A DNA stretch of 28,189 bases from a virus, in IMG/VR virus record IMGVR_UViG_3300031974_004185, positions 1 to 28,189 of that record; one strand, given 5' to 3'. Within the stretch, counting starts at the first letter, position 1. Every line of letters starts with the position of its first letter. Below are positions 491-21,912 of the stretch, one piece after another. A program made the position numbers and the translations under genes. Below the pieces are notes generated by a model. That model was not told where the DNA came from and ran no database searches. It saw only the letters and a list, made by a program, of their open reading frames with translations.

Positions 491-1344
491 GTATCGAAGG
501 ATTTTTTAATTATGCAAGAGAACGCTACAACATCTTTTTAAAAAAAGATGTTGTAGGATCACCTGCTCCATGGACTGAAGATAAAATACTTCAACAATAT
601 CGTTTTTGTAATATTTTCCGTGAGGATGACATTGTTACAAAATGGATTCGTAAAAACGTTCGTGAACCTTATGCTGACCACCCCAAGCTATTGGGCATGA
701 TTGTTCTTGCTCGTTGGTTTAATAAAATTGAAACGCTTGAAGTTATAAAAGAAAACAATTTGTTTGAGAATTGGAACACTGAGGATGCTCAGAAAGCACT
801 TGGTGGTCTTTCTCCTATAGTTAGCGGAGCATATATAATCAAGACTCCAGATGGAATGAATAAACTAACAGGAATTTGTTGGTGCTTAGAGCAAATTTTA
901 CCTGATGCAGTACATCTTCAAGCCCATATCGAGGTTGGTGAAACAGGGTTGGCTGACGTACATAGAGTGTTGATGGATTATCCATTCCTTGGTGCGTTTA
1001 TGTCGTATGAAATAGTAACAGACCTGAGACACACATTTATGTTGAACCAAGCACCTGATATTATGACTTGGGCTAATCCTGGACCAGGAGCAGCACGAGG
1101 TCTCTCAAGGCTTTTAGGCTATGAGGCGAATCATTTTAATCGTAGTAGTAAGAAAGATTATGCAACTATGATGGTTGAAATGCAGAAGTTATTGGAATTA
1201 TCCAAGCAAGATAAATATTGGAGCAATGAATATCCTGCTTGGGAAATGAGAGAAGTCGAACACACGTTGTGTGAGTTCGATAAATATGAAAGGGCAAGAC
1301 TTGGTGAGGGTCGTCCTAAACAAAAATATAGAAAAGGAGTTTAA
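487..1344 (+). CDS. 5-hmdU DNA kinase helical / aGPT-Pplase-like DNA base hypermodification protein
   Basis: 285 residues. Near the N-terminus it has a family-like block: FFNYARERYNIFLKK, PWTEDKILQQYRFCNIFRE, then KWIRKNV. Near residues 196-206 lies NPGPGAARGL, and the C-terminus has WEMREVEHTLCEFDKYERAR followed by LGEGRPK. I associate these motifs with the family known as 5-hmdU DNA kinase helical domain or alpha-glutamyl/putrescinyl thymine pyrophosphorylase (aGPT-Pplase), some members of which transfer amino acids onto phosphorylated hmdU in DNA. Which of the two activities applies cannot be decided by eye. The GPG turn fits the proposed relationship to helix-hairpin-helix DNA glycosylases. 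It overlaps the kinase gene by four bases. A 15-bp perfect inverted repeat lies in codons 13-24. Confidence 0.72.
   Translation: MSIEGFFNYARERYNIFLKKDVVGSPAPWTEDKILQQYRFCNIFREDDIVTKWIRKNVREPYADHPKLLGMIVLARWFNKIETLEVIKENNLFENWNTEDAQKALGGLSPIVSGAYIIKTPDGMNKLTGICWCLEQILPDAVHLQAHIEVGETGLADVHRVLMDYPFLGAFMSYEIVTDLRHTFMLNQAPDIMTWANPGPGAARGLSRLLGYEANHFNRSSKKDYATMMVEMQKLLELSKQDKYWSNEYPAWEMREVEHTLCEFDKYERARLGEGRPKQKYRKGV
525..556. repeat. 15-bp perfect inverted repeat inside coding sequence
   Basis: The arms are CTACAACATCTTTTT (525-539) and AAAAAGATGTTGTAG (542-556), separated by AA. It lies 38 bases after the start codon of the hypermodification gene, so the transcript could form a hairpin just inside the ribosome-binding window. 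The sequence is directly readable; a function is inference. Confidence 0.9.
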
Positions 1345-1347
1345 ATC

Positions 1348-1953
1348 ATGACATCTGTAAGACTAACAAAAACAATACGAGAAACAATCTATACTCGTGT
1401 CATTAAATATAAATTTCAGGAACAAGTTACTGAACTTTTAAAGAAACATCAGAAATTAGCTGAAATGATCTATCAAGATATGTTCACCAAGGATGAGCAT
1501 AAACTTTTAAAAAGTTTGCCACAAAATTGGTTGGCACCAAGACAGTCGATCAGTTATAATTTGGCAGGACAATCTAGATATATTTGTTTCAATGGAATCA
1601 TAGGTCATTATAGGGAATATTACAACCAAATTGATTTTGAAAAACCAGAACAAATTGAATTTAATTTCCCTTGCCAATATGAAACTCCTGTTATCGAGTC
1701 TGGGACAGAAATCTATAACCTTGTTAATAAATTAGATAATGAAGCTGATTCTCTGAATGAAGAGATAAAGAAAGCAAAACAAAACTTATGGGCTGCTTTA
1801 GAATCAGTGACTACTCTTAATAAATTAATTACAGAGTGGGAAGAAATTCGTCCATTCTGTAAGGATTTTATGGTCACAAAAGCTAATCTTCCCGCTGTGA
1901 AAGTTAGTGAATTAAATAAAATGTTGAATTTACCAAAAGAGGAGAATTCATAG
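1348..1953 (+). CDS. Nmad5-like putative nucleotide-modification-associated protein
   Basis: 201 residues, start ATG preceded by AAGGAG with good spacing. The N-terminus (RLTKTIRETIYTRVI, then FQEQVTELLKKHQKLAEMIY) and the C-terminal ending LPAVKVSELNKMLNLP resemble phage proteins I know as Nmad5 (nucleotide modification associated domain 5), a family named by genome context and without proven chemistry. Residues about 125-165 look like a coiled coil. There is no transmembrane segment or obvious catalytic motif. Its place between the aGPT-Pplase-like gene and the thymidylate-synthase homologue is the strongest support for a link to DNA modification. If the family call is wrong it is simply a conserved phage hypothetical protein. 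Confidence 0.5.
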   Translation: MTSVRLTKTIRETIYTRVIKYKFQEQVTELLKKHQKLAEMIYQDMFTKDEHKLLKSLPQNWLAPRQSISYNLAGQSRYICFNGIIGHYREYYNQIDFEKPEQIEFNFPCQYETPVIESGTEIYNLVNKLDNEADSLNEEIKKAKQNLWAALESVTTLNKLITEWEEIRPFCKDFMVTKANLPAVKVSELNKMLNLPKEENS

Positions 1954-2180
1954 TGAAGAAACTATTATTAATATTTTGTTTATTACCATCTATATGTTTA
2001 GCAGATGCAGAACATAGAGAAAAAATTATTTTTGAAAATAAGCGTGCGATGACCATAAGCAAAAGAGAAATAAATGTATTTGAATATCAATCAAAATTAG
2101 ATAATAGAATAATTTGCTTTATCGCAGTAACTGAAGGTTATCAAGAAAATTTACATTGTGTTAATAGGAGAGAAAAGTAA
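1953..2180 (+). CDS. Small secreted (periplasmic) protein of unknown function
   Basis: 75 residues, GTG start overlapping the previous TAG stop by one base, preceded by GAGGAG. The N-terminus MKKLLLIFCLLPSICLADA is a clear Sec signal peptide: two lysines, a hydrophobic core and a likely signal peptidase I site after CLA. The mature product would be about 56 residues, charged, with two cysteines (RIICFIA and LHC) that could form a disulphide in the periplasm. I see no recognisable domain. The stop overlaps the ATG of the thymidylate-synthase homologue. An exported protein inside a nucleotide-modification operon is odd; superinfection exclusion or envelope modification are guesses only. Confidence 0.65.
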   Translation: MKKLLLIFCLLPSICLADAEHREKIIFENKRAMTISKREINVFEYQSKLDNRIICFIAVTEGYQENLHCVNRREK

Positions 2181-3178
2181 TGTTAGTTTTTGATGTTCGT
2201 AACGTTCATGAAGCTTTACCTAAAGTAGTGCAAGCGTTGCTGTTAAAAAAGAATGCAGTTAAGAGAAACTCTCGTAATGGAGAAGTGTTGGTATTTAAAG
2301 AACCAGTAACAACGGTCTATCGTAAACCAACAGAAAGAGTATTATTTTATCCTGATAGAGATGCTAATCCGTTCTTCCATTTTATGGAAAGTCTTTGGAT
2401 GCTGGCTGGTCGTAAAGATGTTGAAATGCCCGCAACCTATGTTAAAAACATTAAGAACTTTAGTGATGATGGAATTTTCTTCAATGCTGCCTATGGGCAT
2501 CGTCTTATTAAGCAATACAGTAAGAATCAGTTAAAAGAAATTATAGATATTTTAAAAAATGATCCTGATTCAAGACAGGCTGTTGCTCAAATTTGGTCGC
2601 ATGAAGACTTGCTAAAAAATACTAAAGATAAACCATGTAATCTAATGGCAGTTTTTAGCATTAATTGTGAGAATAAGGTTGATATGATTGTCTATAATCG
2701 TAGCAATGATATCGTTTGGGGAGCATACGGAGCTAATGCTGTTCATTTTAGCTATTTTCACGAATATGTTGCAGCAGGTATTGGGAAAGAAGTTGGTGTA
2801 TATAGACAAGTTAGTAATAATTTGCATGCATACCTAGATACTTTAGAAAAAGTTAAGAATATTGGTGAATATGAAGCTATAAATAATCCTTATTCTTATC
2901 CTAATGACTTAAAACCTTTTCCACTTGTTAATTCTCAACTAGAACATTGGGAACTAGATTTAAAATTATTTATGGATGATGCTCCTTGCAGTACTATGAA
3001 TGATCGTTTCTTTACCAGAGTTGCTTATCCTATAAAAGCAGCTCACAAAGCTTATAAAAACAAAAAGAATCCTAAAAGATTTTCTTATGCCATTGAAATT
3101 ATGGAACAGTGTTTAGCTGAAGATTGGAGAAAAGCTTGTATTGAATGGTTACAACGTCGGGAACAAGGAGCAAAATAA
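2180..3178 (+). CDS. Thymidylate synthase homologue, probable dUMP hydroxymethylase
   Basis: 332 residues, start ATG overlapping the upstream TAA, with AGGAG before it. Thymidylate-synthase-fold landmarks are present: a folate/dUMP-binding DSRQAVAQIW, the catalytic cysteine in KPCNLMAVFSI (Cys153), then YNRSNDIVWGAYGANAVHFS and NNLHAYL. Asn186 aligns with the asparagine that gives classical synthases dUMP rather than dCMP specificity. The divergent body and position beside hmdU-processing genes favour a 5-hydroxymethyl-dUMP synthase, as in phages that replace thymine with hydroxymethyluracil. Ordinary dTMP synthesis cannot be excluded by sequence alone. It is coupled to the downstream HD gene through a TAATG overlap. 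Confidence 0.8.
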   Translation: MLVFDVRNVHEALPKVVQALLLKKNAVKRNSRNGEVLVFKEPVTTVYRKPTERVLFYPDRDANPFFHFMESLWMLAGRKDVEMPATYVKNIKNFSDDGIFFNAAYGHRLIKQYSKNQLKEIIDILKNDPDSRQAVAQIWSHEDLLKNTKDKPCNLMAVFSINCENKVDMIVYNRSNDIVWGAYGANAVHFSYFHEYVAAGIGKEVGVYRQVSNNLHAYLDTLEKVKNIGEYEAINNPYSYPNDLKPFPLVNSQLEHWELDLKLFMDDAPCSTMNDRFFTRVAYPIKAAHKAYKNKKNPKRFSYAIEIMEQCLAEDWRKACIEWLQRREQGAK

Positions 3179-3741
3179 TGGAACAAGCTAATAAGTTCAC
3201 TAAAATTATACAAACGAGAGCTGGTGGAAGAGTAGAAAGATGTCACTCTTTTACTAAAATTGGCAGTTATAATGTAGCAGAACATTCTTGGAATGTTGCT
3301 ATGCTGGGTTATTATCTATATTCAAAAGATTTTGAAAGGTTGTGCATACATTATTTAGTGCATGATGTTCATGAAGCTTGGGTCGGTGACATACCAAGTC
3401 CAGTAAGGAAGTATGCTTTGGACGGGTCTGTTTTAGAAAAAATTGAAAAAGCTATAAATTTAGAACTGAACTATCCTTCAGCATGTGATTTATCTGATGA
3501 AGATAAAATTAAAATTAGAAGCTGTGACCAACTAGAATTCTACTTTTGGGCTAGAGAACAAGAATTATTGGGTAATAAATTCATTAGAGAATCATTAATA
3601 GAAATTGAAAGATATTTTGATGAAAATCCTCTTGAATATAAAGCAAATAAATTATATCTTTTTGCTAAGGATATGGAAGATGGATTTTTACCAAGACAAC
3701 AAGGTGTGATAAAAGAAATTATGGAGAAAATCAATGGTTAA
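3178..3741 (+). CDS. HD-domain 5'-deoxynucleotidase (YfbR-like)
   Basis: 187 residues from the ATG at 3178, which overlaps the TAA of the synthase gene and follows AAGGAG; an in-frame upstream start at 3145 has no such site. HD metal ligands are visible: Arg18 and His36 (RVERCHSF, AEHSWNVA), His62-Asp63 in LVHDVHEAWVGDIPSP, and a later Asp in RSCDQLEF. This arrangement matches YfbR-type phosphohydrolases that convert dNMPs to nucleosides. In this setting it may hydrolyse dTMP or dCMP from the host pool so that hmdU or dUMP wins (inference). The C-terminal 60 residues are helical. Confidence 0.82.
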   Translation: MEQANKFTKIIQTRAGGRVERCHSFTKIGSYNVAEHSWNVAMLGYYLYSKDFERLCIHYLVHDVHEAWVGDIPSPVRKYALDGSVLEKIEKAINLELNYPSACDLSDEDKIKIRSCDQLEFYFWAREQELLGNKFIRESLIEIERYFDENPLEYKANKLYLFAKDMEDGFLPRQQGVIKEIMEKING

Positions 3742-4168: not shown

Positions 4169-6117
4169 TGCAACTACCATTATTTGAACCAAAGAGTGAA
4201 TGGAAGCCTCCTCAACTGAGTGAGCTTCCATCTTGGAAAGGTAAAAAGAGAATTTGTATTGATGTTGAAACACGTGATGAGCAGCTTCGTAAGCTTGGTC
4301 CAGGAGTTCGTCGTGGTGGATATATTGTTGGAATTAGTTTCACTATAGAAGATGAAGGCTCTTATTATTTACCATATAGGCATGCGGGAGGAGATAATCT
4401 TCCTGTCGATGCAGTGCTTTCCTATATGAAGGAAAATGCTAAAGTATTCACTGGAGATTTGGTGGGTGCAAACCTTAGTTATGATCTAGACTATTTGTGG
4501 GAAGAAGGGATTTTCTTCCCCAATGTAAGATTTTATAGAGATATTCAGATTGCTGACCCTTTAATTTATGAATTACATAATAGTTATAGTTTGGATAACA
4601 TTGCCAAACGCCTTGGTCTGGCAGGTAAAGACGAAACACAATTGCGTATAGCTGCAAAAGATTATGGTGTTGACCCTAAAGGTGGTATGTGGAAACTTCC
4701 TGCTCGTCACGTAGGAGCATATGCAGAAGCAGATACACAACAACCATTATTAGTATTAAGACGTCAGGAAAGATTAATCGACGAACAAGATTTATGGGAT
4801 ATTTATGACTTAGAAAGCAAAGTTCTCCCTGTTTTAGTAAAAATGCGTCGTCGAGGTGTATTAATAGACCAAGATAAACTTAGTAGAGTAGAAGAATGGT
4901 CTACAACTCAGGAGAAAGAGGCTCTCTCGGAAGTTAAAAGGCTTTCAGGTGTAGCTATTAACCTTGGAGATGTTTGGAAAGCGGAGGCTATTGCTCCAGC
5001 TCTGGAGAACATAGGTATAAAGGTTGGTAAAACTGCCAAAACAAATAAACCTTCAGTTGATAAAGACTTTCTCACATCTGTAGACCACCCTGTTGCTAAA
5101 TCCTTACTTTGGGCACGTAAAACAAATAAGCTCAGAACAACTTTTGCTGCGTCAGTTCGTAGATATATGACTAATGGTCGTATCCATTGCGAATTTAACC
5201 AAATAGCAAGAGAAAATGAAGATGGAGAGCAAAAGGGTGCGAGATTCGGCAGGTTAAGTTGCACTAATCCAAATTTACAACAGCAACCAAGTCGTGACGA
5301 ATTTGCACAAATGTGGAGAGATATTTATATCCCAGAGCAGGATGCAATTTGGTGTGCAAATGACTATAGTCAGCAAGAACCTCGTTGGACAACTCATTTT
5401 GCAGCCGTGATGGGTCTTCCAGGAGCAAAAGCTGCTGCACAAGCTTATCATGATGATCCATTACTTGATAATCACCAATTTATGTCAGATTTAACAGGTC
5501 TTCCACGTAAAGCAGCCAAGAACATTTACTTGGGCTTGTGTTATGGTGAAGGTGGTGCAAAATTATGCCGAGAATTAGGTCTTCCAACTCGTTGGGCTTC
5601 CGTGTTTGGTAGAGGTCGTGACCGTAAAACTAAATATTATGCAACTCGTGAAGAAGCATTAGAAGCTAAAAAGCAGGTGGAAAACGGCTATATTTATGAA
5701 GCAGCAGGAGAAGAAGGTCAAAATATTTTAAATACTTTTGATAATCGTGCACCATTTATCCGACAATTGGCTAAAAAAGCCCAGCAGAAGGCAGCAGCCA
5801 AGGGTCAAATTCGTACTGGTGGTGGTCGTGTAATTCACTTCCCAGAAAAGAAAGACGGCAGTTATGATTGGTGTCATAAGGCTTTGAACCGCTTAATTCA
5901 GGGAACTTCAGCAGACCAGACCAAGAAAGCATTAGTTGCTTTGGATGAAGCTGGTTATTTTATGCAATTACAAGTACATGATGAAATAGATGGTAGTGTG
6001 GCAACTGAAGCAGAAGCTCACGCTCAAGCTAAAATTATGAGAGAGATTATGCCTTCAGAGGTTCCATTTAGGGTGGACACTGAATTAGGTAAAAGTTGGG
6101 GAGATTCAATGGGTTAG
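4168..6117 (+). CDS. polA: Family A DNA polymerase with 3'-5' exonuclease domain
   Basis: 649 residues from ATG 4168 (a TTG lies one codon upstream); GGGGAGGAAGG precedes it. The proofreading domain has Asp32 and Glu34 (CIDVET), an ExoII block GANLSYDLDYL and an ExoIII block YAEADTQQPL, so all acidic ligands appear present. Polymerase motif A is NDYSQQEPRW, motif B RKAAKNIYLGLCYG (Arg447, Lys451, Tyr459), motif C VHDEID. There is no 5'-nuclease domain, as in T7-like replicative polymerases. The residue matching E. coli Pol I Phe762 is leucine (Leu455). It is followed by a hairpin and promoter, so it ends an operon. Confidence 0.95.
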   Translation: MQLPLFEPKSEWKPPQLSELPSWKGKKRICIDVETRDEQLRKLGPGVRRGGYIVGISFTIEDEGSYYLPYRHAGGDNLPVDAVLSYMKENAKVFTGDLVGANLSYDLDYLWEEGIFFPNVRFYRDIQIADPLIYELHNSYSLDNIAKRLGLAGKDETQLRIAAKDYGVDPKGGMWKLPARHVGAYAEADTQQPLLVLRRQERLIDEQDLWDIYDLESKVLPVLVKMRRRGVLIDQDKLSRVEEWSTTQEKEALSEVKRLSGVAINLGDVWKAEAIAPALENIGIKVGKTAKTNKPSVDKDFLTSVDHPVAKSLLWARKTNKLRTTFAASVRRYMTNGRIHCEFNQIARENEDGEQKGARFGRLSCTNPNLQQQPSRDEFAQMWRDIYIPEQDAIWCANDYSQQEPRWTTHFAAVMGLPGAKAAAQAYHDDPLLDNHQFMSDLTGLPRKAAKNIYLGLCYGEGGAKLCRELGLPTRWASVFGRGRDRKTKYYATREEALEAKKQVENGYIYEAAGEEGQNILNTFDNRAPFIRQLAKKAQQKAAAKGQIRTGGGRVIHFPEKKDGSYDWCHKALNRLIQGTSADQTKKALVALDEAGYFMQLQVHDEIDGSVATEAEAHAQAKIMREIMPSEVPFRVDTELGKSWGDSMG

Positions 6118-6146
6118 AAAAAGACAATAAAGTTGTTGTCTTTTTC
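6117..6146 (+). terminator. AT-rich hairpin, possible terminator overlapping a promoter
   Basis: Arms GAAAAAGACAA (6117-6127) and TTGTCTTTTTC (6136-6146) pair perfectly over 11 bp with an 8-base loop; the second arm supplies a T-run. The first arm begins at the last base of the polymerase stop codon. The right arm also contains the -35 hexamer of the next promoter, so it may both end the polymerase transcript and start the next one. Confidence 0.5.
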
Positions 6147-6164
6147 TATTAGATAAATTATTAT
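6136..6164 (+). promoter_or_regulatory. Sigma70-like promoter, module copy 1
   Basis: TTGTCT (6136-6141), 17-base spacer, TATTAT (6159-6164). It carries the same GTTGTTGTCTTTTTC block seen before three other transcription units, and the downstream leader has AGAAAAGGA as ribosome site for the gene at 6202. This copy lacks the ACAACAAC part of the downstream arm. Confidence 0.62.
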
Positions 6165-6201
6165 TAATTCATTTAGTAGAATTTTAGAAAAGGAGATTGG
6201 A

Positions 6202-6693: not shown

Positions 6694-7117
6694 AACACAC
6701 AAAGACTTCTTAACTCTCGCCAAGTTTTGGGCTGAATTAAAAAGCAAAGACCCTAGCACTAAAGTTGCTGCTGTTATTGCTGATGATAAAAAGCGTATTG
6801 TTGGGATGGGATATAATGGATTCCCCAGAGGAGTTGAGGATAATCCAGAACGCTATCATGACAGGGAAATAAAGTATAAATATGTCGTGCATGCTGAAGT
6901 TAATGCAATATTAAATGCTGTGAAAAGTGTTGAAGGTTGCACACTCTATTGTTATCCTCTGCCAACTTGTAGTGAATGTGCTAAAGTAATTATTCAGTCT
7001 GGAATTAAAAGGGTTGTATTCCCTAAAGATTCCAATGTGGATAAAAATTGGACAGAATCTTTTAATTTTGCTTATCAAATGTACAGCGAAGCTGGTGTTG
7101 AGGTTTTGTATGTCTGA
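6683..7117 (+). CDS. Deoxycytidylate (dCMP) deaminase
   Basis: 144 residues. Zinc-dependent cytidine-deaminase-fold signature: His70-Ala-Glu72 (VVHAEVNAIL) and PLPTCSECAKVI with Cys96 and Cys99. The N-terminal STKVAAVIADDKK and GMGYNGFPRG are typical of dCMP deaminases. It converts dCMP to dUMP, the substrate of the thymidylate-synthase homologue at 2180, so it fits the proposed hmdU supply route. AGGA lies seven bases before the ATG. I did not see the HxxxxC zinc insert found in some allosteric dCMP deaminases, so dCTP/dTTP regulation is uncertain. Confidence 0.92.
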   Translation: MFHKTHKDFLTLAKFWAELKSKDPSTKVAAVIADDKKRIVGMGYNGFPRGVEDNPERYHDREIKYKYVVHAEVNAILNAVKSVEGCTLYCYPLPTCSECAKVIIQSGIKRVVFPKDSNVDKNWTESFNFAYQMYSEAGVEVLYV

Positions 7118-7523
7118 ACAAGGGATGAGACAAAAGGTTGTGAAGCTTTTAAGTGAATTGGGAGCATTTAGTGTAGAAAATCCCATTCGTCCAGGAACTC
7201 CTGACGTGAATTATATTGAAGGTTGGATAGAATTAAAATGGTTGAGAAGATATCCAAGGAATTATAAAGAAAGTCCCATTCTTATTGAACACTTTACTCC
7301 TCAGCAGCGTATATGGTTAAGGAAGCGATGGGAAAAGGGTGGTGCTGCTTATTTATTACTTCAAGTGAAAAAAGAATGGTTCTTATTCACTGGTAAGACT
7401 GCGTCGAAGATGGTGGGAAGATCAACCTATCAAGAATTGATAGGTTGTGCTGCTGCTTATTGGGCAAATGGTTTAAATAAAGAGGAATTAATAAAATGTC
7501 TAAGAAACAAAATTTCAGATTAA
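7110..7523 (+). CDS. PD-(D/E)XK-type nuclease (VRR-NUC/resolvase-like)
   Basis: 137 residues from ATG 7110, inside the end of the deaminase gene; an upstream in-frame start at 7014 would run deep into that gene and is unlikely. Catalytic pattern: RPGTPDVNYIEGWIELKW, giving Asp32, Glu41 and Lys43 in the spacing D-x8-E-x-K. A later FTPQQRIWLRKRWEKGG block fits the conserved glutamine helix of this superfamily. Likely roles are branched-DNA resolution or a host-takeover nuclease; the exact family needs a profile search. It carries an 11-bp perfect inverted repeat (7423-7447). Confidence 0.68.
   Translation: MSEQGMRQKVVKLLSELGAFSVENPIRPGTPDVNYIEGWIELKWLRRYPRNYKESPILIEHFTPQQRIWLRKRWEKGGAAYLLLQVKKEWFLFTGKTASKMVGRSTYQELIGCAAAYWANGLNKEELIKCLRNKISD
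7423..7447. repeat. 11-bp perfect inverted repeat in coding sequence
   Basis: Arms CAACCTATCAA (7423-7433) and TTGATAGGTTG (7437-7447) flank the loop GAA, within the 3' third of the nuclease gene and 48 bases before the next start codon (ATG 7496). It would form a stable RNA hairpin. No function is known. Confidence 0.9.
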
Positions 7524-7825
7524 CAGTAGGAGAATCTCTCCTGTTAGATCGAAGAAGACGTGGCGAGAATCAGAAACAAGCTGCTGCTCGTCTTGAATTA
7601 TCATATAATTCGTATTGTTATCTTGAAAGAGATATGATGGCTCACGATATTGAAGTAGAGTTAAATTCAATTGCACCGAACGAAAAATGCTTGATTTATA
7701 GAAAGCGAGCAGGTATGACACAAGCCCAAGTGGCGAATACTTTGGGCTTGTGTCGCTGGTGGATTAATTTAATGGAACAAGGTAAGTCTCCTTGTGGACA
7801 ATTACTTCAATTTTGGGAAGCATAA
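7496..7825 (+). CDS. Tandem helix-turn-helix (Xre-like) regulator
   Basis: 109 residues, ATG with AGAGGA upstream, overlapping the nuclease gene. Two HTH units are visible: residues about 10-45 (RLTVGESLLLDRRRRGENQ, then KQAAARLELSYNSYCYLE) and about 65-100 (RKRAGMTQAQVANTLGLC, then RWWINLMEQG). The second is the cleaner Xre/Cro-type unit. It is the only DNA-binding regulator in the window and therefore the best local candidate for acting on the repeated promoter module (inference). A 13-bp perfect inverted repeat lies within the second HTH coding region. Its stop overlaps the primase-helicase ATG (TAATG). Confidence 0.72.
   Translation: MSKKQNFRLTVGESLLLDRRRRGENQKQAAARLELSYNSYCYLERDMMAHDIEVELNSIAPNEKCLIYRKRAGMTQAQVANTLGLCRWWINLMEQGKSPCGQLLQFWEA
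7717..7754. repeat. 13-bp perfect inverted repeat within the HTH gene
   Basis: Arms GACACAAGCCCAA (7717-7729) and TTGGGCTTGTGTC (7742-7754) with a 12-base loop. Each arm contains the over-represented octamer AAGCCCAA, in opposite orientations. It codes for part of the second HTH, so it is both coding and palindromic; it might be an operator or an RNA hairpin. Confidence 0.92.
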
Positions 7826-10188
7826 TGAACAGCATAGAATTTTTAAGAAAGTGGAAGCAAGGAGGACCATGGGTTCTTACTTCAATTCAAACAGATAGAA
7901 AAGGAATACACACACAAACTTTCTATGAAAAAGATGCAGAAGCATTAGAGAATTGGTTAAATCAATATAATGGTAAACGAAATATTTATTTCCATGTAAA
8001 TCCTCCGACGCATGATTTAAAGAAAAAAGCTGAGCGTGAAGACATTAAAGAACTTTCTTGGTTGCATGTAGATATTGATCCTAGAGCTGGAGAAGACATT
8101 GAAGATGAACGTGAAAGAGCGTTAAATCTACTTACAGAAAGATTGCCTAAAGGGGTGCCAGCTCCCACTGTTATTGTATTTTCTGGTGGTGGTTTTCAAG
8201 GGTTTTGGCGTCTTGAAAATCCAATAATTATCAATGGAGACTTAGCAAAAGCAGAAGATGCTAAACGCTATAATCAACAATTAGAAATTTTGTTTGGAGC
8301 AGATAACTGTCACAACATTGATAGAATAATGCGTCTTCCAGGAACTATGAATATTCCTGATGCTCGCAAACAAAAGAAAGGAAGAAAGCCTGAATTAGCG
8401 AAGGTGGTAGAGTTTAATGAAAATATTTATGCACTAAAAAACTTTACTCCTGCTGCAGCAGTTCAAATGGCTGATGATAGTGGATTTAGTGGAAGTCGGG
8501 AAACTGTTAAAATAAGTGGTAATATTGAAAGAATTCAAGATGTTTCTGAATTGGATGAATGGTCAGTTCCTGACCGTATAAAAATAATAATTGTGCAAGG
8601 GAGTCATCCTGATGAAGTTAAACAAGGAGACAATAGTCGCTCTGCGTGGGTTTTTGATGCAATTTGTAATATGGTTCGTCGTGATGTTCCTGATGATATC
8701 ATTTTTAGCATATTAACAGATCCAGATTATGATATTTCAGAAAGCATTCTAGAAAAAGGCTCTAATGCTGAAAAGTATGCCATTAGGCAAATTGAGCGTG
8801 CAAAAGAAGAGGTTATAGATCCATGGTTGCGTAAACTTAATGAAAAATTTGCTGTGATAGGTAACATGGGTGGAAAATGTAGAATTGTTGAGGAAGTTCA
8901 CGACCCTGCATTAAATAGAAGCAGACTAACCAAACAATCATTCGATGATTTTTGTAATAGATATGCAAATATTGATATTGAAATTGGTATAAGTAAAACT
9001 GGTGTTCCACAAACTCAGAAATTAGGTAGGTGGTGGAAAGAACATCCTAAACGCAGACAATACGATTCACTAATATTTGCTCCAGGAAAAGAAGTTAGTA
9101 ATGCTTACAATTTGTGGAAAGGTTTTAGTTGTGAAAGTCTTCCTGGAGATTGTTCATTATTTCTTAAACACATAGAAGAAAACATATGTCAAGGCAATCA
9201 AGTGTTTTATGAATATCTTATTTCTTGGCTTGCTAGAGCAATACAGCAACCTGATTCTCCAGGAGAAGTTGCTGTTGTGTTGCGTGGTGGTCGTGGTGTT
9301 GGTAAATCCTTATTTGCCAAGGAGTTTGGGAAGCTATTTGGACGTCATTTTCTACAAGTTAGTAATGCTGGTCACTTAGTTGGTAACTTTAACAGCCACC
9401 TCAGAGACACTATTGTATTATTTGCGGATGAAGCATTCTTTGCTGGTGACAAGAAACATTCTTCAGTACTAAAAACTTTAATCACTGAAGAAACTATTAC
9501 AATTGAAGCAAAGGGTGTTGATGTAGAAGCAGCTCCCAACTATGTGCATTTAATTATGGCATCGAATGATATGCATGTCATACCAGCTGGGGGAGATGAA
9601 CGTAGGTTTTTTGTTTTGGATGTTGGTAAACAACACCAGCAGGACGCCTCTTATTTTGGGCTTCTTATGAAACAAATGGAAAATGGTGGGAGAGAAGCAT
9701 TACTTCATTATTTAATGACTTATGACATTTCTGACTATCAAGTTAGAAATGTTCCTCAAACAGATGCATTGAAGGAACAAAAGATGTTATCATTAAGCCC
9801 AGAAGAGGACTGGTGGTATCAAAAGCTGCTGGACGGAAGGTTGCTAGAAAAACATGAAGCTTGGGTTAGTGAAGTTATGAAACGTGAAATTATCGATGAC
9901 TTCATAGACAATCATAGAAGGTTTAATGTAACAAGACGTGGCACTGCAACACAGTTGGGCAGGTTCTTGAACCGTGTTTGTCCTACACTGACAGGTGTAC
10001 AGAAAATGGCAGAAATTGAAGTTAACCATCCTGACGGTTGGAGTTCTACTAAAAAGGAAAGAACTTATTTTTGGAAATTTCCATCATTAACAGAGTGTCG
10101 TGCACGTTGGGATGAGTTTTATGGTGGTGAGAAATGGTCAGAAGAACCACAACAATTTGAATTAAATAGCAAAAAAGATCCATTTTAG
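7825..10188 (+). CDS. Primase-helicase (AEP-type primase + SF3/DUF5906-type helicase)
   Basis: 787 residues from ATG 7825 (the in-frame start at 7792 lies inside the HTH gene). The N-terminal archaeo-eukaryotic primase-like domain has Asp83 and Asp85 in LHVDIDPR, a SGGGFQGFW block (120-128) and Asp166/Arg170 in DRIMRLPGTMN. The C-terminal superfamily 3-like ATPase has Walker A RGGRGVGKS (487-495), Walker B VLFADEAFF (Asp535, Glu536), a sensor-like LIMASND, and an arginine-rich GDERRFFVLDV. The architecture resembles phage primase-helicases related to DUF5906 and NrS-1-type primase-polymerases. It would prime and unwind DNA for the polymerase at 4168. Confidence 0.88.
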   Translation: MNSIEFLRKWKQGGPWVLTSIQTDRKGIHTQTFYEKDAEALENWLNQYNGKRNIYFHVNPPTHDLKKKAEREDIKELSWLHVDIDPRAGEDIEDERERALNLLTERLPKGVPAPTVIVFSGGGFQGFWRLENPIIINGDLAKAEDAKRYNQQLEILFGADNCHNIDRIMRLPGTMNIPDARKQKKGRKPELAKVVEFNENIYALKNFTPAAAVQMADDSGFSGSRETVKISGNIERIQDVSELDEWSVPDRIKIIIVQGSHPDEVKQGDNSRSAWVFDAICNMVRRDVPDDIIFSILTDPDYDISESILEKGSNAEKYAIRQIERAKEEVIDPWLRKLNEKFAVIGNMGGKCRIVEEVHDPALNRSRLTKQSFDDFCNRYANIDIEIGISKTGVPQTQKLGRWWKEHPKRRQYDSLIFAPGKEVSNAYNLWKGFSCESLPGDCSLFLKHIEENICQGNQVFYEYLISWLARAIQQPDSPGEVAVVLRGGRGVGKSLFAKEFGKLFGRHFLQVSNAGHLVGNFNSHLRDTIVLFADEAFFAGDKKHSSVLKTLITEETITIEAKGVDVEAAPNYVHLIMASNDMHVIPAGGDERRFFVLDVGKQHQQDASYFGLLMKQMENGGREALLHYLMTYDISDYQVRNVPQTDALKEQKMLSLSPEEDWWYQKLLDGRLLEKHEAWVSEVMKREIIDDFIDNHRRFNVTRRGTATQLGRFLNRVCPTLTGVQKMAEIEVNHPDGWSSTKKERTYFWKFPSLTECRARWDEFYGGEKWSEEPQQFELNSKKDPF

Positions 10189-10190
10189 TG

Positions 10191-10243
10191 TTGTCTTTTT
10201 CTTCGAATGGATTATTATGAGTTTTAGAAAAGGACAACAACTT
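10191..10243 (+). promoter_or_regulatory. Sigma70-like promoter with symmetric leader, module copy 2
   Basis: TTGTCT (10191-10196), 16-base spacer, TATTAT (10213-10218). The downstream arm AGAAAAGGACAACAACTT (10226-10243) is nearly the reverse complement of the -35 block TGTTGTCTTTTTC, so a read-through transcript could pair the two. A second AGAAAAGGA (10248-10256) then serves the SprT-like gene. Confidence 0.65.
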
Positions 10244-10262
10244 AATTAGAAAAGGATGTATA

Positions 10263-10835
10263 ATGAGTAATAGAGAAACATGGTTAGAGAATGCCAAGAA
10301 AGAATTATCACAGAAATTCTTTCTTGATAATGGATATAAACTCCCAGAAAAAGTGCAAGTTAGTTGTGGTTTTCCTCGTGGAAGTTCAAAAGCAATAGGA
10401 CAATGTTTTGATCCTGAAGTTTGTGAAGACGGAACAGTGCAAATATTTATTTCTCCTTGCCAGTCAGATCCAATTCGTGTTTTAGATATACTTTTGCACG
10501 AATTGATACATGCTGCAGTAGGTATAAAAGAGGGTCATAAAGGCAATTTTCGTAAATTAGCGAAAGAATTTGGTCTTGCTGGCAAAATGACAGCTACTTA
10601 TGCTGAAGTGGGTAGTAGTCTTTGGGAAAAGTTGGCTATGATTGCTGGTAAATTAGGAAGATATCCTCATGGTTCTATAAAACTAAAAAAGAAGAAAAAG
10701 AAATCTGATGGTTGGATTAGATTATACTCTGTTGAGCATGAAGCTTATAAAATAACAATAAGTCCCAAGCAGTATGAGGAGTTTGGTGCTCCTCTTGACC
10801 CTTGGGGAACTCAAATGCAGGAGGTAAAAAGATGA
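10263..10835 (+). CDS. SprT-like zinc metallopeptidase
   Basis: 190 residues, ATG preceded by AGAAAAGGA. The SprT-like metallopeptidase signature is ILLHELIHAAVGIKEGHKG: His79, Glu80, His83 and third ligand His92, followed by a FRKLAKEFGL helix. Residues 140-148 are a lysine run (KLKKKKKKS). The C-terminal part (WIRLYSVEHEAYKITIS onward) replaces the zinc ribbon found in many SprT proteins with a cysteine-free tail. Eukaryotic relatives (Spartan) digest proteins crosslinked to DNA; phage substrates are unknown. First gene after promoter copy 2. Confidence 0.85.
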   Translation: MSNRETWLENAKKELSQKFFLDNGYKLPEKVQVSCGFPRGSSKAIGQCFDPEVCEDGTVQIFISPCQSDPIRVLDILLHELIHAAVGIKEGHKGNFRKLAKEFGLAGKMTATYAEVGSSLWEKLAMIAGKLGRYPHGSIKLKKKKKKSDGWIRLYSVEHEAYKITISPKQYEEFGAPLDPWGTQMQEVKR

Positions 10836-11478: not shown

Positions 11479-11480
11479 TT

Positions 11481-11717: not shown

Positions 11718-11718
11718 G

Positions 11719-12543: not shown

Positions 12544-12805
12544 TGATTATACTGAATATCCTACTACTGTCGGTGAAATTAAATCTGATTTAACGCAAGA
12601 TGCAACTGATTGGTCTGCTAGAGATTTATTAATAAATCTGTTAAGAGATATCGATAGTGGTAAATTAGAAATTGAAAAATTAGTTCTTAGCTACCGTCGT
12701 AAAGATGGTAGTTTAGGATTTGGCAATGCTGGTGAATCTAATCATGTTGTTGCTGTAGGTCTTTCTACTATTTTAACTAGTTGGCTATTAGATTCTGTTG
12801 AATAA
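12536..12805 (+). CDS. Small phage protein of unknown function
   Basis: 89 residues from ATG 12536, with AAAAGG nine bases upstream (an in-frame TTG at 12518 is less likely). Begins MIDDYTEYPTTVGEIKSDL; the centre has LLRDIDSGKLEIEKLVLSYR then DGSLGF. I do not recognise it. It ends at the hairpin and promoter copy 3, so it closes the operon that begins at 10263. Confidence 0.6.
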   Translation: MIDDYTEYPTTVGEIKSDLTQDATDWSARDLLINLLRDIDSGKLEIEKLVLSYRRKDGSLGFGNAGESNHVVAVGLSTILTSWLLDSVE

Positions 12806-12822
12806 AAGTTGTCTTTTTATTC
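12800..12822 (+). terminator. AT-rich hairpin at operon end
   Basis: GAATAAAAG (12800-12808) pairs with CTTTTTATTC (12813-12822) apart from one bulged base, loop TTGT. It spans the stop codon of the preceding gene and is followed by promoter copy 3. The same element is perfect at 14161-14184. Low G+C makes it a weak intrinsic terminator. Confidence 0.4.
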
Positions 12823-12831
12823 ATTTAGTTG

Positions 12832-12884
12832 TTGTCTTTTTCTACAGATAAGGTATAATCATAATCAGAAAAGGACAACAACTT
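12832..12884 (+). promoter_or_regulatory. Sigma70-like promoter with symmetric leader, module copy 3
   Basis: TTGTCT (12832-12837), 16-base spacer, perfect TATAAT (12854-12859). The upstream block AGTTGTTGTCTTTTTCT and downstream AGAAAAGGACAACAACTT (12867-12884) are inverted repeats with one mismatch, centred on the -10 region. A second AGAAAAGGA (12885-12893) precedes the DenV-like gene. This is the most complete copy. Confidence 0.72.
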
Positions 12885-12902
12885 AGAAAAGGATTAAATA
12901 AA

Positions 12903-13445
12903 ATGACTCGTATAAATTGTATTCCAGTTCAGGAATTATGTCGTCACCATCTTGTAGCTGAATATCGTGAATTGCCACGTGTGTTTAAGTTAGCTTATAA
13001 AGCTATTAACAAGGGAACAGCAATAGCCGTTCCCCCTACTTATACTTTGGGCACTGGTCACGTCAAGTTTTTCTATGCTCGTCTTGAATATTTATCTAAA
13101 CGGCATGAAGAATTAGTTGCTGAAATGAAGGCTCGTGGCTTTAAACCACAAATGGAAAATGTTGGAGCTGAATGGAAAACTAAGATTGAACAAATTTATT
13201 GGAACGACTGGAAGCCCAGTGAACAAGATATGTCTATTAATCGTGCACGCATAGAGGAACGCAAGCCCAAGTTGAAGTTTGTTCGTGAGGACAGGGGAAT
13301 GTGTCGTAGATACTATTCTTTTTCTCGTAAGTTGTATTGTGAATGTGAACTTAACAACGAACTTTATGTTTGTAGTAAAGATGGTGAACCTTCACATAAG
13401 GTTGCTGATTCTGTTGAAGAATTTAATAAGAGGTTAGCAAAATGA
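12903..13445 (+). CDS. denV: T4 endonuclease V-like pyrimidine dimer DNA glycosylase
   Basis: 180 residues, start MTRIN as in T4 endonuclease V. The catalytic Thr2 (N-terminal amine after Met removal), Arg3, the block AEYRELPRVF with Glu23, and TLGTGHVKFFYARLEYLSKR all match the T4 enzyme closely. The family cuts at UV-induced cyclobutane pyrimidine dimers. The protein is about 40 residues longer than the T4 enzyme (138 residues): the MCRRYYSFSRKLY region probably matches T4 WYKYYGKAIY, and a C-terminal extension (CELNNELYVCSKDGEPSHK onward) follows. First gene after promoter copy 3. Confidence 0.93.
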   Translation: MTRINCIPVQELCRHHLVAEYRELPRVFKLAYKAINKGTAIAVPPTYTLGTGHVKFFYARLEYLSKRHEELVAEMKARGFKPQMENVGAEWKTKIEQIYWNDWKPSEQDMSINRARIEERKPKLKFVREDRGMCRRYYSFSRKLYCECELNNELYVCSKDGEPSHKVADSVEEFNKRLAK

Positions 13446-13705
13446 GGGATATTTTTGTTTTAGATGAAGACAAACAAATTGTGTCAACTATTTGTTTGTC
13501 TCCCATTCAAGTCAGAGAATTGGAAGACAAGGGTGAAGTTATTCTTCGTGATTATGAAGATACTGTTCGCAGTGTAGAATTTAAGACTAATGGTGAAATA
13601 AGTGGTGCGCTTTCTTATAAGACAATTAAGTATAAGGCTGTGTGGGAAAAGAGTAATAATTTTGCTGGTAAGCAATTGAAAGGGGTTGTGAAAGATGAAG
13701 GGTAG
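13442..13705 (+). CDS. Phage protein of unknown function
   Basis: 87 residues, ATG overlapping the DenV-like stop (ATGA). Begins MRDIFVLDEDKQIVSTICL; predicted mixed beta with a short central helix. No domain recognised. An 11-bp perfect inverted repeat lies in codons 9-20. It overlaps the next gene by 11 bases. Confidence 0.6.
   Translation: MRDIFVLDEDKQIVSTICLSPIQVRELEDKGEVILRDYEDTVRSVEFKTNGEISGALSYKTIKYKAVWEKSNNFAGKQLKGVVKDEG
13468..13501. repeat. 11-bp perfect inverted repeat in coding sequence
   Basis: Arms AGACAAACAAA (13468-13478) and TTTGTTTGTCT (13491-13501) with a 12-base loop, beginning 26 bases after the start codon at 13442. It could affect translation initiation of that small gene. 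Confidence 0.9.
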
Positions 13706-13940
13706 AATATTTGCTAAGAAAATTATTAATTCTAAGACTGGTCGTTCCGTGATTTGTGTAAGACTTAGAGACGGAAGCACTCGTTGTGTTGTTGTTCTTG
13801 AAGGGACGTTACCCAAGGGAAACCGTTTAAGAGTTGGAGAAGAGCTAATTCTTGGATTAACAAAGGTAAAAGTCCGTGGGGGATTGGAATTAGAGACTGG
13901 ATCTAGTCCTTATGTTCCTGAAATTAAAATGGTGGATTAA
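13695..13940 (+). CDS. Small basic phage protein of unknown function
   Basis: 81 residues, ATG with AAAGGGG upstream, overlapping the previous gene. It is basic and beta-rich (KTGRSVICVRLRDGSTRCVV, then LPKGNRLRVGEELILG), suggesting a small barrel, but no family is recognised. Its stop is one base before the next start. Confidence 0.58.
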   Translation: MKGRIFAKKIINSKTGRSVICVRLRDGSTRCVVVLEGTLPKGNRLRVGEELILGLTKVKVRGGLELETGSSPYVPEIKMVD

Positions 13941-13941
13941 A

Positions 13942-14166
13942 ATGGCAGAGATTACAATAAATATTGATATTAACTCACTACATGAAATACCATTAGCTTA
14001 TGAAAAAGCTATGAAAGAAGCTGAAGAAATCATGAATGACAGCATTTCATATTATGTTGGTATTAGTTTGAAAAAAATAAATTTATATAAACACTATTCT
14101 TCAGAAGAAGTTGAATATAGGTGTGAATTTGAAATAACTAATATAGATATTTGTGAATCTGAATAA
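13942..14166 (+). CDS. Small acidic phage protein of unknown function
   Basis: 74 residues from ATG 13942, with GGTGG seven bases upstream; the in-frame start at 13912 lies inside the previous gene. Sequence begins MAEITINIDINSLHEIPLAY and continues with a helix EKAMKEAEEIMNDS, then a beta-rich C-terminal half. No domain recognised. Its stop codon is part of the hairpin at 14161. Confidence 0.58.
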   Translation: MAEITINIDINSLHEIPLAYEKAMKEAEEIMNDSISYYVGISLKKINLYKHYSSEEVEYRCEFEITNIDICESE

Positions 14167-14184
14167 AAAGACAACTTTTTATTC
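14161..14184 (+). terminator. 10-bp perfect AT-rich hairpin at operon end
   Basis: GAATAAAAAG (14161-14170) and CTTTTTATTC (14175-14184) with loop ACAA. The left arm includes the TAA stop. A T-rich stretch follows. An alternative pairing of AAAAAGACAAC with the downstream GTTGTCTTTTT is possible, so two mutually exclusive structures can form. Confidence 0.5.
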
Positions 14185-14193
14185 ATTTAGTTG

Positions 14194-14238
14194 TTGTCTT
14201 TTTCTTGAGTAAATGTTATACTTGTAATCAGAAAAGGA
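14194..14238 (+). promoter_or_regulatory. Sigma70-like promoter, module copy 4
   Basis: TTGTCT (14194-14199), 17-base spacer, TATACT (14217-14222). Shares ATTCATTTAGTTGTTGTC upstream and TAATCAGAAAAGGA downstream with copy 3. The AGAAAAGGA (14230-14238) is placed seven bases before a 16-codon ORF rather than before a full gene. Confidence 0.68.
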
Positions 14239-14245
14239 TGATACC

Positions 14246-14296
14246 ATGACTATCAAAGAATATAGAATCAGAGAACAAAGTAATTTGTTTTGTTAA
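14246..14296 (+). CDS. 16-codon leader ORF
   Basis: ATG with AAAAGGA at ideal spacing encodes MTIKEYRIREQSNLFC and stops at TAA 14294-14296. It follows promoter copy 4 and precedes a small hairpin (TCAGCA 14298-14303, TGCTGA 14313-14318) and the gene at 14351, which has its own AGGAG. It may be a regulatory leader peptide or the remnant of a deleted gene. Confidence 0.4.
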   Translation: MTIKEYRIREQSNLFC

Positions 14297-14297
14297 G

Positions 14298-14318
14298 TCA
14301 GCATCTATTATTTGCTGA
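14298..14318 (+). promoter_or_regulatory. Leader hairpin
   Basis: TCAGCA and TGCTGA pair over six bp with a nine-base loop, starting one base after the leader ORF stop and 32 bases before the next ATG. No T-run follows, so it is not a classic terminator. Confidence 0.35.
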
Positions 14319-14350
14319 ACCAATAATTTAATTTATTTAGGAGAAAAATA

Positions 14351-15496
14351 ATGTCACACTTTAGTGTATTGGTTATTACAAAGAGTAGACCTTCTAAGAT
14401 TGACTTAGAAGGTTTGATGATGCCTTATCATGAGTTTGAATGCACAGGTTATGAAGCATATATTCAAGAAATAGATGAAACTGAGGAGATGAGGAAAAAA
14501 TTTTCTATCAATACTTCAGAATACTATAAAAATGAAGAAGGTGAGCTGTTTGAAACTTATGAAGATCAATTTTTCAGAGACCCAAAAGAAGGAGAATTAG
14601 AAAGGGCTGGTGTCATAGGTGGCACTGGTGCAGGGAATGATATTAGCTGGCATAGTCGTGATTGGAATGATGGGAAAGGTTATCGAACTAAAGTTCACTA
14701 TATTCCTGAAGAATTTACTCCAGTAACAAAGTCTATTGCTGAAGTAAAGTCTTTCCGTGAGTGGTTGAAGGATTGTACTAATAGACAAGAAATCTTGTCT
14801 ATTAGTGAATTAAATGAAGAAACTAAATATGGTTACACCCTCATAGATAGTAATGGCGAAGTTGTAAAAACCATTAAGAGAACTAATCCTAATTATAAAT
14901 GGGACTGGTGGGAGATTGGTGGTCGTTATCGTAACAGGTTGCTTTCTACACAAGGTGGTGTTTGTGATTCAGAAAGGGTTGGAGATATCGACTTTGAAGT
15001 CATGAAACAAACAGCTGTGATGCGTAGGGAGGAATCTTTAGAAAAAGTTGTGAAAGAGAGTTTGCTTTCTTTTGAAGAAATAAACTCTCTTTGGGCTCAA
15101 TACGTCAAATATGGAGGTTGGAAAGCTTTTATTAAAGAATGGGAAAATATGGAAGGTAGAAAAGGCATTAGACCTCATGAAGCAATAAGTCTTTTGCCAG
15201 AAAATCATATTATTAGAAAAATGAGGGAAACTGATTTACTTAACAAGTTTTCTGGTATGCTTGGACTTGATGTTGATGAGACTGAACCAAATTTGGAGAA
15301 TTGGGTTCAGTCTGCTCCAGCCTTATCCTGCTATGCCATTAATTATGATGGGCAGTGGGAAGCTATTGGGGAAATGGGCTGGTTTGGTTGTTCTTCAGAC
15401 GAGGTTACACAAGCCCAGTGGCAGGCAACTGTTGATGAAACTCTGGCAAAGTGTAGTAAGGATTATTGGATAACAGTGGTGGATTGTCATGTTTAG
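14351..15496 (+). CDS. Conserved phage/plasmid protein (MSHF-type), unknown function
   Basis: 381 residues, ATG with AGGAG upstream. The N-terminus MSHFSVLVITKSRP, the PYHEFECTGYE block, NPNYKWDWWEIGGRYRNRL and the C-terminal QWEAIGEMGWFGCSSDE then ITVVDCHV belong to a conserved family I know from many phages and plasmids, always as hypothetical. The invariant WDW-x-x-GGR and aromatic/acidic blocks suggest a globular enzyme-like fold, but no reaction is known. Four perfect inverted repeats of 10 to 14 bp lie within this one gene. It heads the group 14351-16551 behind promoter copy 4. Confidence 0.72.
   Translation: MSHFSVLVITKSRPSKIDLEGLMMPYHEFECTGYEAYIQEIDETEEMRKKFSINTSEYYKNEEGELFETYEDQFFRDPKEGELERAGVIGGTGAGNDISWHSRDWNDGKGYRTKVHYIPEEFTPVTKSIAEVKSFREWLKDCTNRQEILSISELNEETKYGYTLIDSNGEVVKTIKRTNPNYKWDWWEIGGRYRNRLLSTQGGVCDSERVGDIDFEVMKQTAVMRREESLEKVVKESLLSFEEINSLWAQYVKYGGWKAFIKEWENMEGRKGIRPHEAISLLPENHIIRKMRETDLLNKFSGMLGLDVDETEPNLENWVQSAPALSCYAINYDGQWEAIGEMGWFGCSSDEVTQAQWQATVDETLAKCSKDYWITVVDCHV
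14389..14413. repeat. 10-bp perfect inverted repeat
   Basis: ACCTTCTAAG (14389-14398) and CTTAGAAGGT (14404-14413), loop ATTGA, near the start of the MSHF-type gene. Confidence 0.88.
14777..14806. repeat. 14-bp perfect inverted repeat in coding sequence
   Basis: ACTAATAGACAAGA (14777-14790) and TCTTGTCTATTAGT (14793-14806), separated by AA, the same minimal spacing as the repeat at 525-556. Confidence 0.92.
15053..15092. repeat. 11-bp perfect inverted repeat with inner hairpin
   Basis: AAAGAGAGTTT (15053-15063) and AAACTCTCTTT (15082-15092). Within the 18-base interval TTTCTT and AAGAAA can pair around TTG, giving a nested hairpin. Confidence 0.85.
15279..15313. repeat. 10-bp inverted repeat, extended past one mismatch
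   Basis: AGACTGAACC (15279-15288) and GGTTCAGTCT (15304-15313) pair perfectly; after one mismatch four further bp can form, in the 3' part of the MSHF-type gene. Confidence 0.85.
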
Positions 15497-15511
15497 AACA
15501 GGAGGTTAGAG

Positions 15512-15820
15512 ATGACTCATAGTGTGTTGAGTTTAAAGAATTTGTTGGGAAGAAATGAAAGTGATTTAATTTCTAAAATTAAATATCTTGAAGCTGCTAA
15601 TAATATTCAGTTGACAAAAAGAACTAAACGTCAAATTGATGGACTGTCAGATAAGAAATTCATGGGTTCGGCTTTGGTTTTAACTATCACTGATATTAGT
15701 GGGAATGAGGTTATGTGTCCTATTGCTATTTCAGATGGTCTTTCTTCAGAAACAATTGAGGTGTTGAAAAAAGAAGTTGATAAAGTAGAGAAAATGAAAG
15801 AGGAATTGTATGACAAGTGA
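15512..15820 (+). CDS. Phage protein of unknown function
   Basis: 102 residues, ATG preceded by a strong AGGAGGT. Helical N-terminus (SVLSLKNLLGRNESDLISK), a beta section around SALVLTITDISGNEVMCPI and a C-terminal coiled coil rich in Lys and Glu. Not recognised. It overlaps the following gene by 11 bases. Confidence 0.62.
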   Translation: MTHSVLSLKNLLGRNESDLISKIKYLEAANNIQLTKRTKRQIDGLSDKKFMGSALVLTITDISGNEVMCPIAISDGLSSETIEVLKKEVDKVEKMKEELYDK

Positions 15821-16040
15821 ACTAAAGAAAATTAATAATTTTTATGCTGGAGGAGGGTTTTTATTAAAACCTTTGTATCGTCAATTTGAAGATAACAGCG
15901 GACAATATTTGGCAGGATATACTTTGTATTATGAAGGAGTTGAGGCTGATTTTTACCCTATTCCTGATGATATGAAATGGAAGCCTGAAGAATTTTTAAA
16001 ACAAATTGCGGAGTCTATTAATAATGAATTTAATGATTGA
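15810..16040 (+). CDS. Small phage protein of unknown function
   Basis: 76 residues, ATG preceded by AGAGGA. Beta-rich, aromatic (NNFYAGGGFLLKPLYRQFE, then YLAGYTLYYEGVEADFYPI), ending in a helix. No recognised family. It overlaps the exonuclease gene by 17 bases. Confidence 0.6.
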   Translation: MTSELKKINNFYAGGGFLLKPLYRQFEDNSGQYLAGYTLYYEGVEADFYPIPDDMKWKPEEFLKQIAESINNEFND

Positions 16041-16551
16041 TTTAGAAACATTTAGTATCAAGCCCAATGCTGTCATAACTCAGGTTGGAGTGGTGGTTTT
16101 TGATACAACACAGATACTATCGAGTATCTGTGTTGACTTAACACTCACTGAACAAATTTTGGATGGTTGTGCTGTGGATGAAGACACTGTTTCTTGGTGG
16201 AGAAGTAACAAAGAAGCACATTCGATTTTATGTTCTGGAGAGCCTGTGAATTACTACCAAGGGCTGGAAAATATTAGGAAATTTATTGTGGAAAAATGTC
16301 CTAAAGTTGAAGGTGTTTGGGCTCATGGAGCAAGTTTTGATTTACCTATTATTGAAAATGGGTTCCGGAATGCTGGGATTGACATTCCATGGAAATACTC
16401 AAAACATCGTGACACACGCACACTTTATCAGCTTGCCAAGGATAATGGGTGGCAATATGATCGTGGAAAAGTTAGTCATAATGCTCTTGATGATGCCACG
16501 CATCAAGCTGAAATGACCATGTCAGCCTTGAAATGGTTATCTAAAGGTTAA
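16024..16551 (+). CDS. DexA/Rv2179c-like DEDDh 3'-5' exonuclease
   Basis: 175 residues from ATG 16024, with GGAG upstream. DnaQ-fold ligands: Asp6 and Glu8 in MIDLETFSIKPNAVI, Asp106 in VWAHGASFDLPII, and His152/Asp157 in SHNALDDATHQAE, so the DEDDh set is complete. The block DEDTVSWWRSNKEA is typical of the T4 DexA and Rv2179c-like exo(ribo)nuclease group. Possible roles are DNA turnover or RNA trimming. It is the last gene before the non-coding repeat region and carries a 13-bp perfect inverted repeat. Confidence 0.85.
   Translation: MNLMIDLETFSIKPNAVITQVGVVVFDTTQILSSICVDLTLTEQILDGCAVDEDTVSWWRSNKEAHSILCSGEPVNYYQGLENIRKFIVEKCPKVEGVWAHGASFDLPIIENGFRNAGIDIPWKYSKHRDTRTLYQLAKDNGWQYDRGKVSHNALDDATHQAEMTMSALKWLSKG
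16106..16135. repeat. 13-bp perfect inverted repeat in coding sequence
   Basis: CAACACAGATACT (16106-16118) and AGTATCTGTGTTG (16123-16135), tetraloop ATCG, 82 bases after the exonuclease start. Confidence 0.92.
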
Positions 16552-21874: not shown

Positions 21875-21912
21875 AAGCCAAAATGGGTAACCACCTATCC
21901 CCATTTTGGCTT
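21875..21912 (+). terminator. 13-bp perfect hairpin terminator
   Basis: AAGCCAAAATGGG (21875-21887) and CCCATTTTGGCTT (21900-21912), 12-base loop, followed by a T-rich stretch (TACTTCTCTATTTTTATC). It lies between the minor head gene and the scaffold promoter, so it probably limits transcription between them. Confidence 0.72.

Follow-up and report, generated by a model that had tools for sequence, protein, structure and literature searches.

Template switching turns imperfect into perfect repeats. Microbes are known to undergo this process, and the excess of inverted repeats (IRs) in prokaryotes has been explained by it (PMC8794818, PMC4060949). As these two papers cite their work, Ladoukakis and Eyre-Walker (2008) laid the prokaryotic excess of small perfect IRs to the conversion of quasipalindromes, and for IRs of 6-9 bp in coding sequence a small but significant excess is cited (PMC4060949). 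Template switching was also named as a candidate for the palindromes in mitochondrial coding sequences of Nematomorpha, for which an all-or-none argument was made (PMC6649704). In E. coli, a genome-wide statistical enrichment of IRs was found ∼25-60 bp downstream of start codons (PMC6060812). Here we describe a class of perfect IRs inside the genes of a phage, identified in the entire virus record IMGVR_UViG_3300031974_004185 (28,189 bases, 37% G+C; the whole of it is called the window below), and we propose that they probably arose in the main by template switching.

The IRs of the window share with the prokaryotic excess, as far as the citing papers describe it, perfect arms free of mismatches, short loops, a location inside coding sequence and unrelated sequences. 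Unlike the 6-9 bp excess cited there, arms of 10-15 bp are enriched ∼15- to >40-fold in one small phage record, while most related contigs and other phages exhibit far lower enrichment. Perfect IRs in functional genes with nearly no imperfect class are common to the window and the Nematomorpha, where the repeats are gained and lost between species; the nematomorph repeats reach 284 bp and their arms encode conserved residues, whereas the 10-15 bp arms of the window fall mostly in poorly conserved residues (PMC6649704). The placement of the E. coli IRs with cruciform potential matches that of four IRs in the window, but in contrast to the genome-wide enrichment only a minority of the window's IRs is start-proximal (PMC6060812).

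IRs were defined by perfect arms and loops of at most 20 nt unless stated otherwise, and a full scan of the window yielded 26 of them with arms of at least 9 bp. Expected numbers came from 1000 dinucleotide-Markov shuffles in 1-kb blocks and from 100 synonymous-codon shuffles that kept the proteins and the codon use of each gene. Compared to the dinucleotide-Markov shuffles, 15 IRs were observed for 0.93 expected at arms of at least 10 bp (maximum of 5 in the 1000 runs), 13 for 0.27 at arms of at least 11 bp (largest count 3), and 7 for 0.013 at arms of at least 13 bp. Within coding sequence 8 IRs with arms of at least 11 bp stood against 0.24 in the synonymous-codon shuffles, which never exceeded 2. 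Mirror repeats, which served as a control of the same geometry, occurred near chance (1 vs 0.31 at 11 bp or more). With two null models and this control, an artefact of sequence composition is ruled out, and the observation is confirmed as a strong one: the hairpins form a class beyond chance, and their sequences are unrelated to each other.

A previous sequence-only reading of this DNA had listed nine IRs by eye, and all nine are present exactly where it placed them, eight with the arm lengths it gave and one, at 13468-13501, with arms of 12 instead of 11 bp. Its hand estimate of well under one IR expected at arms of 11 bp or more and loops up to 20 nt agrees with the 0.27 obtained by shuffling, the arms are mutually unrelated and hence not copies of one element, as it had claimed, and the in-gene excess survived the whole-genome scan and the codon shuffling that it had suggested as checks. 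The full scan added one intragenic IR of the same class, with 12-bp arms at 10295-10326, and intergenic IRs starting at 6115, 12799, 14160/14165, 16622, 21875, 22865 and 24045.

The excess is restricted in its shape. It is confined to loops of 0-20 nt (15 IRs with arms of at least 10 bp for ∼0.4 expected in the comparison by loop length), and at loops of 21-400 nt nothing with such arms was clearly above expectation. Perfect stems are enriched ∼40-fold (13 vs 0.35 in the comparison by mismatch), while stems with one mismatch are enriched less than three-fold in the window (3 vs 1.1 at 11 or more pairs, 5 vs 3.45 at 10 or more). Since selection for pairing should also enrich imperfect stems, their near absence speaks for template switching. 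The arms had no clear preference for a codon phase. Close direct repeats (at least 10 bp, gap of at most 20) are mildly over-represented in the window as well (6 vs 1.2), as expected if replication slippage is likewise raised.

A signature of the RNA strand is also lacking. Single mismatches were compared in the genes of relatives, where numbers suffice, there being few cases in the window itself: G-T mismatches, which would be G-U in mRNA, numbered 9 compared to 13 A-C mismatches (2 vs 6 in the IR-rich relatives), and the pairs flanking the arms comprised 14 G-T and 15 A-C. Strand-symmetric, perfect Watson-Crick arms with short loops would also suit stems that act as DNA, as cruciforms or single-strand hairpins serving as origins, primosome-like sites or recombination sites, and the IRs are concentrated in the half of the window that carries the replication genes. 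Yet they have no common sequence, far exceed in number what origins need, are spread across unrelated genes and are little conserved between relatives, which makes a function as DNA sites very unlikely.

Ten intragenic IRs have arms of at least 10 bp, all of them listed on the + strand. Four lie shortly after a start codon, at the distance given for each: 525-556 (15-bp arms, loop 2; 38 nt) in gene 487-1344 of the phrog_2396 family; 10295-10326 (loop 8; 32 nt) in the SprT-like gene 10263-10835; 13468-13501 (loop 10; 26 nt) in gene 13442-13705, for which no homologue was found; and 14389-14413 (10-bp arms, loop 5; 38 nt) in gene 14351-15496 (phrog_10079). The latter gene also contains the IRs 14777-14806 (14-bp arms, loop 2), 15053-15092 (11-bp arms, loop 18) and 15279-15313 (10-bp arms, loop 15). 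The remaining three are 7423-7447 (11-bp arms, loop 3) inside gene 7110-7523, 7717-7754 (13-bp arms, loop 12) in the HTH-like gene 7496-7825, and 16106-16135 (13-bp arms, loop 4) in the exonuclease-like gene 16024-16551, at 82 nt from its start. The sequence-only reading had counted this last IR among those just after start codons, a description that holds for 525, 13468 and 14389 only. RNA folding is strong at every IR (z −3.5 to −7.3), reaching −7.3 at 14777-14806 and −18 kcal/mol with a z of −6.7 at 525-556. None of the intragenic IRs was listed by a + strand scan for intrinsic terminators (G+C-rich stem followed by a T tract), none matched Rfam at gathering thresholds, and no intragenic IR family occurred among the 20 largest direct-repeat families listed.

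Most of the long arms fall in those residues of their proteins that are least conserved. By hand-averaging, the mean conservation percentile of the arms was ∼0.25 for intragenic IRs of at least 10 bp and ∼0.68 for 9-bp IRs. Both arms of 7423-7447 fall in the least conserved residues (percentiles 0.06 and 0.12), as do the arms of 14777-14806 in poorly conserved ones; at 525-556 this applies to the right arm and not to the left, and 15053-15092 falls in a segment whose length varies among homologues. The exception is 7717-7754, where, alone among the long IRs, the residues of both arms are of average conservation; 21 homologues had no IR.

Reading frames continue through every intragenic IR, most of the sites align to homologues without an insertion, and a like excess occurs in independent contigs from other samples. 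These observations, together with arms that have no common sequence, bear on the idea that the IRs derive from a mobile palindromic element, whether as copies or as remnants, or are an artefact of amplification or assembly. Amplification enzymes can produce inverted chimeras, but in view of these observations we give such an origin hardly any credence. The IRs do not behave like REP or Rickettsia palindromic elements, whose copies share sequence, the arm sequences being unrelated.

The repeats are mostly not conserved whereas the proteins are, the outcome that the sequence-only reading had itself named as speaking against its view. Of 93 homologous sites, 7 carried any IR of at least 8 bp, for 2.5 expected. 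In two related, IR-rich contigs, L079 and L084, none of 25 comparable IRs was perfect in both, and the arms diverged no less (0.35 and 0.29) than their flanks (0.24 and 0.25). In one example from this pair the arm CGTCACTTGG is unchanged while the opposite arm is altered at 7 of 10 bases. Strong asymmetry between the arms (an absolute difference of at least 4 changes between left and right) was found for 14 of 51 IRs, a set drawn from relatives only and mostly from IR-rich contigs, compared to 13% of control sites, or ∼7 expected. With their almost complete turnover of IRs, L079 and L084 are a good natural system for studying the mutational process.

All-or-none stems, loops of at most 20 nt, the missing strand signature, the location in poorly conserved residues, and weak conservation with overwriting of one arm are five features that imperfect-to-perfect template switching predicts. 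For the molecular mechanism we infer the following. A nascent strand would fold back or switch onto a partly complementary stretch within ∼20 nt, copy it as its reverse complement and then return, so that a weak quasipalindrome would become a perfect palindrome in a single event. Events that break a protein would be purged by selection, leaving survivors in frame and in poorly constrained residues, and the IRs would be lost again through ordinary substitution. In this phage such IRs would arise or persist far above the rate of most relatives, and a minority, especially the four at 26-38 nt past starts, may be retained because the hairpin aids or tunes translation. We consider it probable that the intragenic perfect IRs are mainly products of such short-range template switching, a minority being possibly also kept for translation. 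Among the meanings proposed in the sequence-only reading, the DNA-level one, replication hairpins, has the most support, if the hairpins are taken to give rise to mutations and not to be functional sites. As a general account, translation control or RNase III processing is not supported, since the stems are nearly all perfect with few one-mismatch forms, G-U does not exceed A-C, and the repeats are mostly unconserved; a regulatory role may apply to the four start-proximal IRs.

Several points weigh against template switching as the whole explanation. A megablast search with the first 25 kb of the window found no close DNA relative in the phage collection, so the history of its own IRs could not be traced and no conversion event can be demonstrated in this phage itself. 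The one-arm asymmetry is moderate, and the sites compared were picked for having an IR in one of two contigs. The early region, which makes up 0.59 of the coding sequence, contains all ten of the intragenic IRs. In a panel of relatives, with starts backed by a Shine-Dalgarno motif (a crude start caller gave a larger, overstated enrichment), IRs with arms of at least 10 bp numbered 5 for 0.8 expected at 20-50 nt from starts and 5 for 0.6 at the same distance from stops, and the excess further inside genes was weaker (29 or 40 vs 12-14). The relatives also fold slightly more strongly than synonymous shuffles in a region centred 36-83 nt past starts, where the mean z was −0.2 to −0.4 compared to −0.12 in the interior. 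Finally, matching places in different phages can carry IRs that differ in sequence: in the SprT-like gene, relative L040 has a 12-bp IR at the protein position that corresponds to the window's 10295-10326, and the start of the polymerase gene bears perfect IRs of different sequence in L040 (375-405), L051 and L060, with no IR of at least 9 bp at the window's own polymerase gene start.

The gene-end, folding, positional and early-region points fit a selected subset, which we keep as the main rival: RNA elements in early-gene coding sequence that were selected for translation pacing, protection or RNase III processing, especially just past starts. The left ends of 4 of the 10 intragenic IRs lie 20-60 nt past a start, for 0.58 expected (P = 0.0016, post hoc, as the distance range was picked after the data were seen), their actual span of 26-38 nt recalls the E. 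coli enrichment (PMC6060812), and the strong RNA folding of every IR is in agreement with such a role. Against it, the one-mismatch class is almost absent and G-U is not preferred, six of the ten IRs are not start-proximal, and the positional conservation described above is slight, with nothing shared between L079 and L084. The pairing kept across homologues by compensatory changes, the tolerance of G-U and the Rfam match that mark conserved RNA hairpins were not found. Moreover, the enrichment near stops in relatives equals that near starts, which a mere tolerance of change at gene ends would be expected to produce. Selection for RNA structure as the general source of the IRs is, on balance, rather unlikely. 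Most likely, a known mutational phenomenon is seen here in an extreme form, and a minority of hairpins near starts may have been selected.

The intergenic IRs form a class separate from the intragenic ones and include promoter dyads and a terminator. The window has four copies of a promoter-like unit, at 6131-6164, 10186-10218, 12827-12859 and 14189-14222, consisting of GTTGTCTTTTTC, a TATAAT-like hexamer 16-17 nt past TTGTCT, and then AGAAAAGGA. In three of the four units dyads surround the −35 region. On the + strand, as for all features listed here, a dyad with 13-bp arms at 6115-6148 overlaps the stop codon of the polymerase gene and the −35-like TTGTCT of the unit; one with 9-bp arms at 12799-12823 lies upstream of the promoter-like TTGTCT-16-TATAAT at 12832-12859; and two overlapping dyads with 11-bp arms each, at 14160-14203, lie across the same repeated unit. 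These dyads may be operators for a regulator of early genes. Further intergenic IRs lie at 21875-21912 (13-bp arms), between genes 20603-21802 and 22016-22837, and at 22865-22904 (14-bp arms), upstream of gene 22989-24041. Directly past the latter gene, a stem followed by a T run at 24045-24066 is a probable intrinsic terminator of ordinary appearance. In the phage PAE1 (L155), an IR at 14847-14884 follows just after the tail assembly chaperone gene and has a counterpart in CN1 (L153); 9 of 10 pairs are kept although both arms have changed from one phage to the other, and it is possibly a frameshift-associated or terminator structure.

By its gene content the window is placed near the Mesyanzhinovviridae siphophages. 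Its predicted proteins include a thymidylate synthase, a family A DNA polymerase, a primase, a SprT-like protein, a terminase and a portal protein, with matches in siphophages such as PaMx11, PAE1 and the Bordetella phages CN1/FP1 of the Mesyanzhinovviridae and the unclassified phage Simon. The best-matching genes share ∼55-69% protein identity, and the best homologous proteins 65-69% over most of their length; the protein of gene 14351-15496 had no match in the viral-contig scan and phage homologues of ∼35% identity. GC skew is strongly positive across the window (1-28189), reaching 0.36, which fits the location of all likely genes on one strand.

The IR-rich trait is patchy among related phages. 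Using a crude open reading frame (ORF) caller, we counted 2.4 IRs with arms of at least 11 bp per 10 kb of ORF in the window and 0-0.7 in eleven other phage sequences, five of them from the same broad group. A general trait of AT-rich phages is ruled out by the few IRs in T4, HP1, HTVC010P, P-SSP7, phi10:1 and A118, and a trait of the whole phage group by the few in PaMx11, PAE1, CN1 and RDJL3 and by the scatter of IR-rich contigs on the primase tree. In the panel of related contigs, near-identical ones included, 67 intragenic IRs with arms of at least 11 bp were found for 11.0 expected, a ∼six-fold excess. L040, L042, L079, L084, L131, L133 and L143 come near to or equal the IR richness of the window. 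These contigs do not cluster on the primase tree; on a quick portal tree they are partly clustered, to which near-copies contribute.

It is conceivable, if distinctly unlikely, that this phage and its scattered relatives run an unusually template-switch-prone replication, some of whose palindromes have been taken over as start-proximal hairpins of early genes. A single mutational process would then be the source of changes in proteins as well as of regulatory structure. Caution is advised where perfect hairpins are dense in the genes of a phage, as they are not necessarily regulatory. If template switching is indeed the main source of the IRs, some phage lineages would be natural hot spots of a type of mutation that is usually studied in reporter genes. 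Such lineages could reveal which replisome or host factor sets its rate, and could show by what route coding sequence acquires perfect hairpins when structure is not selected for.

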